A stretch of DNA of 22,364 nucleotides. Origin: a virus. Positions 4,639 through 21,800 of this stretch are shown piece after piece (position 1 is the stretch's first letter; each line of letters begins with the position of its first letter). The notes under the pieces are model-generated. The model was not told where the DNA came from. It saw nothing but the letters and a program-made list of their open reading frames with translations, and made no database searches. Location of the stretch: the IMG/VR virus record IMGVR_UViG_3300036766_000195, positions 1 through 22,364 of that record; one strand, 5' to 3'. A program made the position numbers and the translations under genes.

Positions 4639-5100
4639 ATGACGTTTGTTTGTGAGGAATGCGGGCAGGAACGTAGCGGCGTAAGACGACGCTGCTACCC
4701 CTGTACCGTTGGCCGCTCACCCGGCAATCAGTACACACGAGGGGCGAAGTTTGCTCCTGAGACGATGGCTAAAGCGGTAGCAACGAGAACCGCTAGAGGC
4801 TTTGTGCCTTTTGACATTGCCGCTGTGACTCGCGGCAAACCGGCTATCAACGCCTGCCCGGTCAACACACAACGGCTGGTCAAAGATGGCCGGTGGCAAA
4901 TTAAGACTGAGGAAGGCCAATTCCGTTGGCCGTACCTCTCGCGCGTTATGTGGGAACACGCAACCGGCGAAAGTCTCACATCGCGTGACATCATCCACCA
5001 CGTAAATGGGAACCCGGCTGACGACCGGATAGGCAACTTCGAGAAGTTAACACGAGCCACGCATTTACGTGCTCATACACAGCTAGTAGCAGCAGTTTAA
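4639..5100 (+). CDS. HNH homing-type endonuclease with N-terminal zinc finger
   Basis: The 153-residue protein starts with a four-Cys finger (C5, C8, C19, C22). It ends in an HNH_3-type nuclease core, IIHHVNGNPADDRIGNFEKL, followed by ATHLRAH. Likely metal and catalytic residues are H120-H121, N133, H142 and H146. A mobile, free-standing HNH gene between the tail tube and tail-chaperone genes is typical of intronless homing endonucleases that move between related phages. It has no structural role in the tail. The GAAAG before ATG 4639 is a modest ribosome-binding site. A short gap with AGGAG separates it from the next gene. I see no intron around it. Confidence 0.85.
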   Translation: MTFVCEECGQERSGVRRRCYPCTVGRSPGNQYTRGAKFAPETMAKAVATRTARGFVPFDIAAVTRGKPAINACPVNTQRLVKDGRWQIKTEEGQFRWPYLSRVMWEHATGESLTSRDIIHHVNGNPADDRIGNFEKLTRATHLRAHTQLVAAV

Positions 5101-13934: not shown

Positions 13935-14384
13935 TTAGGCCGCTTTGTGGTGGTGGTGCCTATGCTCAGATTGATTCTCGAATAGCTGTAGGTTCTCTGG
14001 CCTGTTATCGTCCTTAACCTCATTGCGATGATGCACCACCTCTGTAGGCAAAAGAGCGCGGCCAATAGATGCGGCCATGATGTAACGGTGCTCTAGTTGC
14101 CAATCGCTTGGCTCGGCAACCTTTATCATTACGTACCCGGCCTTAATATGTGTAGAGCCAACGGGAACAGGCTTACGCCCCGGTGAGTTCTTGTTGCCGA
14201 TGTTCGCGGCGACTATCTTGGCCCGCGTCTCGTCACTATGTTTGTAGCCTACAGCATTCTGATTACCCATGTTTGCGGCAGATATCTTAGCCTTGTGTTC
14301 GGGTGATTGCTTGTAGCCTAGCCGGGCGGCTGATGTGTTAGCCTTGTGTTCGGCAGTTTGCTTGTAACCCTTCTTAGGTGGCAT
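13935..14384 (-). CDS. HNH endonuclease with three NUMOD3 motifs
   Basis: The start chosen is ATG 14384 (MPPKKGYK), which overlaps the TerL stop (TAATG) and has AGAGGAGAAAG upstream; a longer frame into TerL is not needed. The 149 residues begin with three NUMOD3-type DNA-binding repeats (YKQTAEHKANTSAARLG, YKQSPEHKAKISAANMG, YKHSDETRAKIVAANIG). An HNH_3 nuclease follows with EVVHHRNEVKDDNRPENLQL. H118-H119, N131 and the His-rich end supply metal ligands. It is closely related to the HNH gene at 18211-18534. As a homing-type nuclease coupled to TerL it may cut related phages, or assist packaging as some terminase-linked HNH proteins do; the second is inference. Confidence 0.85.
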   Translation of the reverse strand: MPPKKGYKQTAEHKANTSAARLGYKQSPEHKAKISAANMGNQNAVGYKHSDETRAKIVAANIGNKNSPGRKPVPVGSTHIKAGYVMIKVAEPSDWQLEHRYIMAASIGRALLPTEVVHHRNEVKDDNRPENLQLFENQSEHRHHHHKAA

Positions 14385-15994
14385 TAGTCTTTCTCCTCTG
14401 TATATCCCCCGAGTCCGAAGCGCTTTTTGACTGTCCATAGCAGATAGCGCACAGCGTCGCACGTGTGGCTAAAAGCGTGGTTCGAGGCGCTCGGGTCGGG
14501 TCGCTCCCCCCATGCACCATCCGCCTTTGCCTCCGAACGATATTTCTGGAAACCGGCAATCGTTTGTATGCATCTTGGGTGTACGATGTAACGCGGCTTG
14601 CCGAGTGGCCCCGGTTGCATCATCGCCTTCACTACATCTTGGCCGCTAACAATCTGATGCTTGACCCGTGACGGCTTAGCCGCCGCAAGGCCACGTATCT
14701 TGAACTCCTGCCTCATTTGCACGGCTGACACGTCCCCAGCGCCGATATCCACCCAAACAGAGGGGAACCTTACGCCCGTCCAATTATTCGTTTTCCAAAC
14801 TTGCCGCCACTCATCCATAGAAGGGCCGTCATAGTTTTGAAGTTCTGTAATGCGAGTTACAAGTCTCTCTACCCACTCTTGTTCACTCACACCGTTACCT
14901 ACGAGTTCATCAAACTGAAAAAGTTGGCCGTCGCGGTACTGGCAGAGGATAATCGCCGTGTCGTCGGAGAAGCCCCAATCATATCCGCACCAAATCGGCC
15001 CCGCGTCGGGCACGTACTCTGCCTCGTCGCTCACGTTCGCATCGCTGAATGTCTGATAGATAAACGATTTGCTCTCAGGCTTCTTGCAAAGAAATTGCGC
15101 GTCGAACGTGTCCGCATCGATAGTCCTGTAGAACTTGCCGACTGCCTCGTGTGATAGCCACCCTGTAGCATTGCGTGAGTTGCCGTCTGACCACTTGTAC
15201 AGATTGCAGTTCTCAGCGGTGCAATTCTCATCGCACGGCATCGCCGCTTCGGCGATACAATAGGCGTAGACCCGCGCACCAGTCAACTCGGCATCGCTTA
15301 GAACCTTTGCCATGAGGCCTGTAGCCGAGTTCCGCGTACTCGTCACTAGGTATTGACCGAGCCGGTTGATTTCACCATCAAGCCAAGATGTCGGGATAGC
15401 GAGAGTATTACGATAGGCAACAGGGTTGCCGCTCTCCAACTCATCGAACGAAACAAACCGGGTGTGCGCGCCTTGGCTTGCGCGTTCGCTGGCTGCTATG
15501 ATTTCCAACGTTGACCCGTTGATGAATGTGCTTGAAGATTGAAGCGTCTCTTTGATAGCGAGCTTGAATGGCTTACGGCGGATGAAGTCTTTGAAGTACG
15601 CATATGCTCGCCGGGCCTGCTTATCGATTGCGCCGAAGTGTGCGGTAGAAAAGCCCGGCTTCCAATACGAGTTTGTGATTTCGAGGATGGCTGTGTAGAG
15701 CGTCTTACCCCCACCACGGTTCGCCAGCACGATTACGTTATCTTCGCGGTGAAAGAACATATCGGCGATGAAGTCGAAGGGGGGCGCGTGACCGGCACAC
15801 ACAGAGGTACGCGGGATGTCTAAGCCGAACACTTCTTTTATCCAAGCGTGTAACTCATCATCGGTGGTAGGCCGTGTTTCTGCGGCGGGTTTGTTCTTGA
15901 GTTGCTCAGCCGCTTGTTCGAGGAACAACGCCAACACTTCCGGCGGTACGCCACTCTTTTTCTTTATCGGCGGCTCGTATGGCTTAGTCGGCAT
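14384..15994 (-). CDS. terL: Terminase large subunit
   Basis: The 536-residue packaging motor has an ATPase half with Walker A ANRGGGKT (91-98), Walker B VSFDELE (D184, E185) and coupling motif LVTSTRN (216-222). The nuclease half has D339 in WCGYDWGFSDD, D416 and D421 in VWVDIGAGD, and D513 in SHTCDAVRYLL. Between the two halves is a Cys cluster (C246, C254, C258, C263) that may bind zinc. It pumps DNA into the prohead through the portal and cuts concatemers. The start overlaps the TerS end by 11 nt. The gene lies on the strand opposite the tail genes, separated from any portal gene. Confidence 0.95.
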   Translation of the reverse strand: MPTKPYEPPIKKKSGVPPEVLALFLEQAAEQLKNKPAAETRPTTDDELHAWIKEVFGLDIPRTSVCAGHAPPFDFIADMFFHREDNVIVLANRGGGKTLYTAILEITNSYWKPGFSTAHFGAIDKQARRAYAYFKDFIRRKPFKLAIKETLQSSSTFINGSTLEIIAASERASQGAHTRFVSFDELESGNPVAYRNTLAIPTSWLDGEINRLGQYLVTSTRNSATGLMAKVLSDAELTGARVYAYCIAEAAMPCDENCTAENCNLYKWSDGNSRNATGWLSHEAVGKFYRTIDADTFDAQFLCKKPESKSFIYQTFSDANVSDEAEYVPDAGPIWCGYDWGFSDDTAIILCQYRDGQLFQFDELVGNGVSEQEWVERLVTRITELQNYDGPSMDEWRQVWKTNNWTGVRFPSVWVDIGAGDVSAVQMRQEFKIRGLAAAKPSRVKHQIVSGQDVVKAMMQPGPLGKPRYIVHPRCIQTIAGFQKYRSEAKADGAWGERPDPSASNHAFSHTCDAVRYLLWTVKKRFGLGGYTEEKD

Positions 15995-17908: not shown

Positions 17909-18211
17909 TCATCTCTCGTAACCTGTTGGCGGAATGCCGCGCATCGCAAAGCCTCGTGTCCATTTTGTCACCCGACTGTGCTCAGGGCGGCAACACGCTT
18001 TTGTCTGACACACGCGGCGTAATTCGAAATCTCCGGGGTCACCCATGAACACGATGTAACAGAGCCGCCGGGCGTTCCAATTTTTGTGCTCATACCAAAT
18101 CTGCGCGCGGCCTCGATAGTCTACTTTTCCGATGTAGAGCCAACAGGGAGAGCCTTCAATAGAGCCGGGAACGTTTCTATCAATCTTTGAAAGAAGGTGC
18201 GCCATGTCCAT
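17909..18211 (-). CDS. HNH-like protein with missing catalytic histidines
   Basis: The 100-residue protein follows the layout of small phage HNH proteins of the CWxWxG type: SPCWLYIG (C23, W24), GRAQIW, ARRLCYIVFMGDPG, then LRRVCQTKACCRPEHSRV with C68, C73, C74 and H78. In active relatives the usual patterns are AHR and HxC(D). Here Arg occupies both positions (R48 and R66). The zinc site may persist while cleavage activity is likely reduced or lost. It starts on a TAATG overlap with the upstream HNH gene at 18211. It is either a decayed homing endonuclease or a DNA-binding derivative. Confidence 0.65.
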   Translation of the reverse strand: MDMAHLLSKIDRNVPGSIEGSPCWLYIGKVDYRGRAQIWYEHKNWNARRLCYIVFMGDPGDFELRRVCQTKACCRPEHSRVTKWTRGFAMRGIPPTGYER

Positions 18212-18534
18212 TACGCTGCCTCGTTGTGATATGCGGTGTGTGCCGCTGTGTTTTCGAATAGACGTAGGTTTTCAAGCCTGTTATCGTCTTTCACTTCGTT
18301 GCGATGATGCACTACCTCTGTAGGCAAGAGAGAGCGGCCTAGATGTTGGGCCATCAATACACGGTGTTCTAGTTGCCACACGTCAGGGTCAGCCACTTTG
18401 ACGAGTCTGTAACCCTTTGAGTAGCAGGTAGAACCGATAGGCACGCGCATGTGTGTGTTACCCATCTTGGCGGCAGACATATTAGCCTTGTGTTCGGCTG
18501 TGAATGGCTTACGTTCGTACACTCCTGTTGGCAT
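18211..18534 (-). CDS. HNH endonuclease with one NUMOD3 motif
   Basis: The 107-residue protein has one NUMOD3 repeat (FTAEHKANMSAAKMG), then GYRLVKVADPDVWQLEHRVL and the HNH core EVVHHRNEVKDDNRLENLRL. Key residues are H76-H77, N89 and H99/H103. It is a shorter paralogue of the HNH gene at 13935-14384: the core from WQLEHR to LFEN is nearly the same in protein and very similar in DNA, but two of the three NUMOD3 repeats are absent. The strong AGGAGAG before ATG 18534 and the promoter at 18660-18632 make it the first gene of the minus-strand operon. Confidence 0.85.
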   Translation of the reverse strand: MPTGVYERKPFTAEHKANMSAAKMGNTHMRVPIGSTCYSKGYRLVKVADPDVWQLEHRVLMAQHLGRSLLPTEVVHHRNEVKDDNRLENLRLFENTAAHTAYHNEAA

Positions 18535-20295: not shown

Positions 20296-20302
20296 CGCTC
20301 TG

Positions 20303-20329
20303 CAAGCTGAGCTAGTACCTATCAGCTTG
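20303..20329. repeat. Inverted repeat beside the putative attP
   Basis: CAAGCTGA (20303-20310) and TCAGCTTG (20322-20329) are perfect inverted arms, 11 nt apart. The right arm lies in TATCAGCTTG (20320-20329), which recurs at 20394-20403 inside the tRNA-like core. CAGCTTGTGAAGCC (20323-20336) recurs with one change at 20445-20458. These repeats flank the core and may be integrase arm sites. No T-run follows, so a terminator is less likely. Confidence 0.55.
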
Positions 20330-20395
20330 TGAAGCCGACAAAAACGGAACCCCAGATTAGGTACGATTCAGGTTCGACGGTTGACGGCAGTGTTA

Positions 20396-20438
20396 TCAGC
20401 TTGGAAGGCTAGCGCTCTACCAATTGAGCTACCCCCGC
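20396..20438 (-). other. tRNA-Gly(UCC) 5'-half fragment, putative attP core
   Basis: Reading the minus strand from 20438, the order is an acceptor 5' arm GCGGGGG, TA, D-stem GCTC, D-loop AATTGGTA, D-stem GAGC, G, anticodon stem CTAGC, loop CTTCCAA (anticodon TCC) and the first bases GCT of the 3' stem. The match then stops. No T-arm or 3' acceptor strand is found, so it is not a functional tRNA. A tRNA piece beside a tyrosine integrase is the usual sign of an attachment site. Most tRNA-targeting elements carry the 3' part of the gene, whereas this one carries the 5' part. Confidence 0.75.
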
Positions 20439-20512
20439 TTTTGGCAGCTAGTGAAGCCAGCATAGCACTACTTAGCTTCGACCGTCGCGCCGATAACAGG
20501 AGCATGGTGGAA

Positions 20513-21385
20513 ATGAACCTAAACGGCGCAATCGACAGCTACGCGAAGGCGTTAAAGGCCCGTGGGCTTAGCTTGGGAAGCATAACGGGCTATTCCCGCG
20601 TTTTGAACATGCTTTCGAAGGCTACACAAGCTGAATGGCCGCGCTATCCCGAACTCGTTGATTGGGTGTCGGGCATGGAGAATCTCAATAAGACGACGAT
20701 GCATCATCGGGTGTCCGCCGTCAAGAGTTTCTTTGCATGGGCCTTCGATATGGAGTACATCCCGGCCAACCCCGCCGCGAAACTCATTACCCCCAAGCGG
20801 GCCAAGGGACTGCCGGAGATACTCACCGAATCGCAAGTAATGTGGCTGCTCAGGGAATGGACACCCTACTACGACAAGCGAGACGCCTTCCTGATTCCCC
20901 GTGATAAGGCCATCGTCAGGATGTACCTCTTGACGGGCCTACGGCGGGCGGAACTCTGTTCCCTTGACGTGGGGGACATCAACCTAGCGGCTAAGACGGT
21001 CAGCGTACGTCACGGCAAGGGGGACAAGGCCCGCGTAGTGCCGCTATCTACCAGCCTCGTATTCGCCCTCAAAGAGTTCGTGCATGGGCGGGAGCCGGGC
21101 GAACCGCTGTTCCTTGGCAAGAACATCAGAGGCGAGCGCAAGCGGCTGGCCCCGGACGCGGTAACGTACATCTTCGTCCGCAAGGTGTCACCGGCAATAG
21201 GGCGAAAAGTCACACCGCACATGTGCCGCCATTCATGCGGTACGATGCTGGCCCGGCGCGGCAAGAACATTCACGATATCAAGGACTGGCTAGGCCATGA
21301 ATCGCTAGACACGACCACCTTGTATTTGCACACGTCAGGCCGGGACTTGCGGGCCTTAGCCGACTCGCTAGACGATATCGCCTGA
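20513..21385 (+). CDS. int: Tyrosine recombinase integrase
   Basis: The frame is open from 20381, but codons before ~20500 translate the antisense of the tRNA fragment, so a later start is preferred. ATG 20513 has AGGAG ten bases upstream; ATG 20504 is only one base from it. The 290-residue product has an N-terminal SAM-like DNA-binding domain (1-90). The catalytic domain has R144 (TGLRRAE), K169 (RHGKGDKAR), H236 and R239 (HMCRHS), H262 (WLGH) and Y271 (TLYLH). All expected catalytic residues are present. It should integrate the phage at a host tRNA-Gly gene through the adjacent attP. A strong terminator follows. Confidence 0.93.
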   Translation: MNLNGAIDSYAKALKARGLSLGSITGYSRVLNMLSKATQAEWPRYPELVDWVSGMENLNKTTMHHRVSAVKSFFAWAFDMEYIPANPAAKLITPKRAKGLPEILTESQVMWLLREWTPYYDKRDAFLIPRDKAIVRMYLLTGLRRAELCSLDVGDINLAAKTVSVRHGKGDKARVVPLSTSLVFALKEFVHGREPGEPLFLGKNIRGERKRLAPDAVTYIFVRKVSPAIGRKVTPHMCRHSCGTMLARRGKNIHDIKDWLGHESLDTTTLYLHTSGRDLRALADSLDDIA

Positions 21386-21500: not shown

Positions 21501-21800
21501 ATGCCCAAAGGTCAGTACACGAGAGGTAAGACACAATCCCTGTCTGTCCGCTTACAGGAGCTAACAGAGGAAGTGAGGCAGCTAGAAGGCTTCCGTACCA
21601 CTATCGATGCATACCTAGCAGGCTCAAGCTCAGCACCTAAGGCACCTCGACGTAAGCGCCGAACGAAGGCAGAGATGCTAGAGGCCGCTGCTAACGCTGC
21701 TACCCCCGTCAAACGCTCCCGCAAGCCTGCCCGGCGCAAGAAGGCTGCCACTACGGCCCGTAAGCCACGCAAGAAGGCTACCCCCAAGGCAACCGAGTAA
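21501..21800 (+). CDS. Histone-tail-like basic DNA-binding protein
   Basis: The 99-residue protein has a short helical N-terminus (SLSVRLQELTEEVRQLEGF, probable coiled coil). A long Lys/Arg/Ala/Pro tail begins near residue 47 (APRRKRRTKAEMLEAAANAA, then SRKPARRKKAATTARKPRKK). Such tails resemble histone H1 and the C-terminal arms of some bacterial HU proteins and probably bind DNA without sequence specificity. It could help genome compaction or integrase complex formation. AGGAG lies nine bases before ATG 21501. The same frame stays open for 51 codons after the TAA and there encodes an AT-hook-like RGRPPKPSPR. Confidence 0.75.
   Translation: MPKGQYTRGKTQSLSVRLQELTEEVRQLEGFRTTIDAYLAGSSSAPKAPRRKRRTKAEMLEAAANAATPVKRSRKPARRKKAATTARKPRKKATPKATE

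Follow-up and report, generated by a model that had tools for sequence, protein, structure and literature searches.

A candidate phage attachment site carrying the 5′ half of a tRNA-Gly(UCC) gene beside a tyrosine integrase gene

The region at positions 20296-20512 of the window, that is, of the whole 22,364-nucleotide stretch of viral DNA analysed here, is very probably the attachment site (attP) of a temperate tailed phage that infects a Chloroflexota family. This high confidence refers to the whole explanation taken jointly, namely an attP, an attB within a host tRNA-Gly(UCC) gene and, upon integration, a hybrid tRNA gene lying behind phage DNA. If correct, the region represents a clean instance of a rare 5′-type attachment site in a phage, in which half of a tRNA predicts the host family. 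It would also allow a simple test of whether prophage DNA can take the place of a host tRNA gene's own promoter.

The minus strand from 20438 to 20397 reads GCGGGGGTAGCTCAATTGGTAGAGCGCTAGCCTTCCAAGCTG, which corresponds to nucleotides 1-42 of tRNA-Gly(UCC) and runs from the acceptor 5′ strand through the D-arm and the anticodon loop to the fourth base on the 3′ side of the anticodon stem. A first-pass annotation of this DNA had recognised a 5′ half of tRNA-Gly(UCC) on this strand and had proposed a search of bacterial genomes for the corresponding genes. Such a search confirms the tRNA half, as complete tRNA-Gly(UCC) genes identical to the window segment at 42 of 42 positions were found in genomes G001 (L012), G002 (L013) and G053 (L050). 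Identity between phage and host begins exactly at tRNA nt 1 and ends at nt 42, while the leader upstream of nt 1 has 0-1 base in common with any host leader; the tRNA itself thus sets one limit of the shared block, and the anticodon stem the other. The same annotation had placed the loss of the match just after the anticodon loop; in fact the identity continues for four nucleotides into the 3′ strand of the anticodon stem (nt 39-42). Shuffled sequences give zero expected matches for a 25-base pattern drawn from the matched segment. Among the viral contigs, the eight whose tRNA-Gly starts are similar have complete tRNA genes throughout and zero halves. The 5′ half, folded alone, is of no unusual stability.

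The remainder of the tRNA-Gly gene is absent directly after nt 42. With ARAGORN, the window yields no complete tRNA. The host 3′ half, whose occurrence elsewhere in the phage had been named beforehand as evidence against the proposal, was not found in the window at up to three mismatches. As the virus record is apparently partial and linear, these searches cover the sequenced part alone, and the rest of the genome could still contain the 3′ half or a whole tRNA. The sole other window site with up to five substitutions to the D-arm of the 5′ half is the one at 20296-20314; it is possibly what is left of an old tRNA, or else another integrase arm site, an uncertain choice. This site lies 117 bp from the first D-arm and overlaps part of the arm-like motif described below (CAGCTTG).

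Table 1. Features of the candidate attachment region, of the rest of the window and of a related genomic element (strand given where assigned)
Feature	Position	Strand	Remarks
tRNA-Gly(UCC) 5′ part (nt 1-42)	20397..20438	-	segment identical with the presumed host attB
Anticodon loop CTTCCAA, presumed 7-bp overlap (crossover) region	20401..20407	-	position from sequence
Arm-type-like repeat CAGCTTGTGAAGCC, left of core	20323..20336	+	direct repeat with 20445-20458, 13/14
Arm-type-like repeat CAGCTAGTGAAGCC, right of core	20445..20458	+	direct repeat with 20323-20336
Possible third arm-type-like site CAGCTTGTGTAGCC, inside the integrase gene	20620..20633	-	1 mismatch to motif
Extended -10-like box TGCTATGCT, candidate phage promoter for the rebuilt tRNA	20459..20467	-	
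D-arm-like sequence TAGCTCAGCTTGCAGAGCG	20296..20314	-	15/19 against the D-arm of the 5′ half
Tyrosine integrase gene, 293 aa	20504..21385	+	ATG 20504; alternative ATG 20513
HNH-endonuclease-like ORF	4639-5100	+	motif by eye
HNH-endonuclease-like ORF	13935-14462	-	motif by eye
HNH-endonuclease-like ORF	18211-18534	-	motif by eye
G018 element (L051-L052)	G018:C30:75899-86192		10.2 kb between two identical complete tRNA-Arg(UCU) genes

The intact tyrosine integrase gene that had been reported beside the segment is likewise there. Its product matches PF00589 (E 4.9e-30) and the phrog_1 integrase family (E 1.5e-46) and has the expected R, K, HxxR, H and Y residues. The gene starts 65 bp from tRNA nt 1 and is directed away from the tRNA, and the attP core (20397-20438) lies upstream of its ATG at 20504, in other words outside the integrase reading frame. 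Just 3′ of it, at 21501-21800 on the plus strand, a small and strongly basic protein with a C-terminus rich in K, R, A and P is encoded, for which no Pfam match was found.

The closest integrase found, with 51% identity over 290 amino acids, is encoded in G018, a genome of the same Chloroflexota family. A phylum-wide sample of 400 genomes gave no further relative at E 1e-45, and protein scans of viral and genome contigs gave no close one. A two-sequence profile scan of the viral contigs returned matches at 23-36% identity and nothing closer, none of them at a locus with a complete tRNA. No tRNA adjoins any of the remaining 29 integrase-like loci retrieved from the class.

The G018 integrase gene lies 65 bp from the 5′ end of a tRNA-Arg(UCU) gene and is directed away from it, that is, in the same geometry as in the phage. 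It was predicted before the search that the tRNA-Arg 5′ half would recur at the other end of the integrated element, and such a copy was found, 10.2 kb away and in the same orientation. Each of the two, however, is a complete 76-nt copy with CCA, identical to the other; this contradicts the strict prediction of a single 5′ fragment. Since the element bears a complete tRNA at both ends, it is no example of an attP with a 5′ half only. Upstream of the far copy is a DUF6391 gene, and six relatives have one ahead of tRNA-Arg as well. This neighbourhood argues that the far copy keeps the host upstream side and that the integrase-side copy has a leader derived from the element. Besides the integrase, the element encodes an NrS-1 polymerase-like/AAA protein, an HTH regulator and a DDE transposase, and no structural phage gene was recognised within its 10.2 kb. 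Overall, these observations suggest that the integrase clade attacks different tRNA genes from the 5′ side. Related prophages integrated elsewhere had been foreseen as a finding contrary to the original proposal: the one relative does lie at another gene, tRNA-Arg(UCU), which goes part of the way towards such a finding, but it retains the geometry of the phage. It also fits the claim that the phage has to supply the upstream context, as this nearest integrase relative sits at the 5′ end of its tRNA.

Within the candidate attP, the crossover most likely takes place inside the 7-bp anticodon loop, as we infer from known integrases that recombine there (PMC8371274). Compared with such anticodon-loop sites (sublocation A), the phage identity stops at nt 42, just beyond the loop. 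The core is flanked by direct repeats that look like integrase arm sites: in 60 shuffles of the region, a match of 13/14 never arose, and the window has just three sites of this motif at up to two mismatches (20323, 20445 and 20620). The motif was not found in the G018 element.

The predicted course of integration is as follows. The integrase would recombine attP with attB, which lies within the host tRNA-Gly(UCC) gene, and the exchange would most probably fall in the anticodon loop. The junction on the integrase side would then consist of the phage leader, phage nt 1 to about 38 and host nt 39-76, so that the tRNA gene would be rebuilt intact, now behind phage DNA, whereas the opposite junction would retain the host promoter and a useless 5′ stub. 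In silico, joining phage nt 1-38 to host nt 39-76 gives the host tRNA sequence again, and ARAGORN calls this hybrid as tRNA-Gly(UCC), while neither the attP nor the displaced junction is recognised as a tRNA. Judging from this hybrid, recombination would restore a complete tRNA-Gly. No integrated copy of the phage or of a close relative was found, and use of the tRNA-Gly(UCC) attB by the phage is predicted. Two further statements of the first-pass annotation are thereby strengthened, namely that the attP carries the 5′ rather than the 3′ half and that the 5′ part has to be rebuilt on integration: the 42-nt identity starts at nt 1, and together with the host 3′ half it forms an intact tRNA-Gly.

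In general, recombinant tRNA genes of bacteria are expressed from the original promoter, with very few exceptions (PMC8371274). Among the islands mapped by Islander, a 5′ tDNA fragment is found in 159 of 3919 and a 3′ fragment in the remainder (PMC4383910). The presence of a 5′ half, which had been presented as unusual, is therefore uncommon indeed, but less so than was implied. The phage resembles the Islander 5′ type in its tyrosine integrase, its tRNA target and the 5′ part carried by the element; specifically, the tRNA is matched from nt 1 to an internal point, the tyrosine integrase gene is adjacent and the in-silico hybrid is intact. The difference is that the Islander examples are integrated islands, whereas here there is a free attP alone, from a phage for which no close relative turned up in the collections searched. 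A second comparison is offered by the archaeal pTN3-like integrases, which target the 5′ half and leave expression to the integrase promoter, a kind of situation that is rare among bacteria (PMC8371274); pTN3 has 41 bp in common with its target, and its rebuilt tRNA-Leu is cut off from the promoter (PMC5495485). These Thermococcales elements (PMC5495485, PMC8371274) have in common with the phage about 41 bp of a tRNA 5′ half and a rebuilt gene removed from its original promoter. In contrast, pTN3 integration disrupts the integrase gene and the tRNA is expressed from the integrase promoter, while the attP of the phage is outside the integrase gene, not within its frame, and the tRNA is directed away. 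The G018 element, with its sister integrase (51%) divergent from a tRNA whose nt 1 is 65 bp away, differs in having the whole 76-nt tRNA at both ends, another tRNA and no recognised structural phage gene. The arrangement of the phage is real and uncommon, and falls within a known minority type.

The rebuilt tRNA would be expressed from a phage promoter, for which the extended -10 box at 20459-20467 is the candidate. The box ends 20 bases before tRNA nt 1, and its 9-mer recurs ahead of the tRNA-Gly gene of G001. Both strands counted, the window has eight sites of the form TGNTATNNT, with 0.013 expected per 75 nt of one strand. A simple sigma-70 scan gave no full sigma-70 promoter and no good -35. 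We consider it about evenly balanced whether this weak consensus match acts as the phage promoter. Alternatively, the attP may be just as described, with the rebuilt tRNA transcribed by read-through or silent and a second host tRNA-Gly compensating. This is a variant of the preferred explanation and compatible with it, and we hold it possible, though the less probable course: the promoter evidence is weak, which speaks for it, and against it stand the suitable distance and orientation of the extended -10 and the 9-mer shared with G001. A bolder conjecture, for which we have little confidence, is that the phage extended -10, which abuts an arm site, takes over the host tRNA-Gly(UCC) in lysogeny, maybe the only copy of the host. 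If this were true, expression of a host tRNA would depend on prophage DNA and might respond to integrase binding.

A different outcome is known from phages of Actinobacteria with tRNA-dependent lysogeny, such as Fionnbharth, LeBron and Gaia, whose attP and attB share 8-17 bp (PMC10865867). They too have a tyrosine integrase and an attB within a tRNA gene, but differ in their short core, in the lack of rebuilding and in a phage tRNA that complements the loss. Integration of the present phage would, by analogy, break the host tRNA, and a complete phage tRNA-Gly encoded elsewhere would substitute for it. Such a gene could sit in the missing part of the partial record and phages of this kind do exist (PMC10865867), yet the window is without a complete tRNA, and 42 nt shared up to exactly nt 1, with an intact hybrid, contrast with the 8-17 bp core and unrebuilt tRNA of those systems. 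We therefore judge this improbable. Even less credit is given to the idea that the region is a prophage junction and not an attP, with host leader and host 5′ half joined to phage and everything to the right of 20438 being host DNA. A displaced 5′-type junction would resemble the phage side; nevertheless, the integrase gene lies to the right of 20438, in the position that it has in the G018 element, no more than one base of the leader is common to any host leader, and no integrase is found beside the tRNA in the host upstream regions read. A decayed phage tRNA-Gly gene or a chance match, with no tie to integration, is the least probable of all, for although tRNA genes, tRNA-Gly(UCC) included, are frequent in phages, the segment has zero substitutions in 42 nt, an abrupt end, the integrase gene 65 bp away and repeats on both sides, and its 25-base part has no expected random match.

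The attP with a tRNA-Gly attB, which we prefer, also points to a host. An exact 40-base pattern of the segment matches just two genome contigs, L010 and L011, both with a complete tRNA-Gly(UCC). In the class of L011, 7 of 393 genomes match the tRNA-Gly pattern at up to three mismatches and all seven belong to one eight-member family; since every class genome with a matching tRNA-Gly falls in this family, the host is likely to be this one Chloroflexota family. Of the two contigs, one is labelled Chloroflexi and the other (L010) Actinomycetes, and translations reveal that the two have in common the gene preceding the tRNA, which makes a host from the Chloroflexota probable. L010, having tRNA-Gly and upstream gene as in the Chloroflexi contig, is possibly mislabelled or part of a mixed MAG. 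In G053, two contigs, C12 and C19 (L049 and L050), end in the same 55 bases at tRNA-Gly(UCC). The assembly thus breaks at the predicted attB, with strain variation as the simplest cause.

With regard to the other genes of the window, scans with the TerL protein found no relative in the viral contigs and one weak phage match. A contig of 11.8 kb from a genome of the same class (L070, G267:C37) encodes a 45% relative of the C-terminal part of the window TerL; this contig has no tRNA and, besides TerL, no window protein matched it. Lastly, in the translations read by eye, at least three ORFs with HNH-endonuclease-like motifs (VVHHRNEVKDDNR and similar) are scattered among the structural genes.
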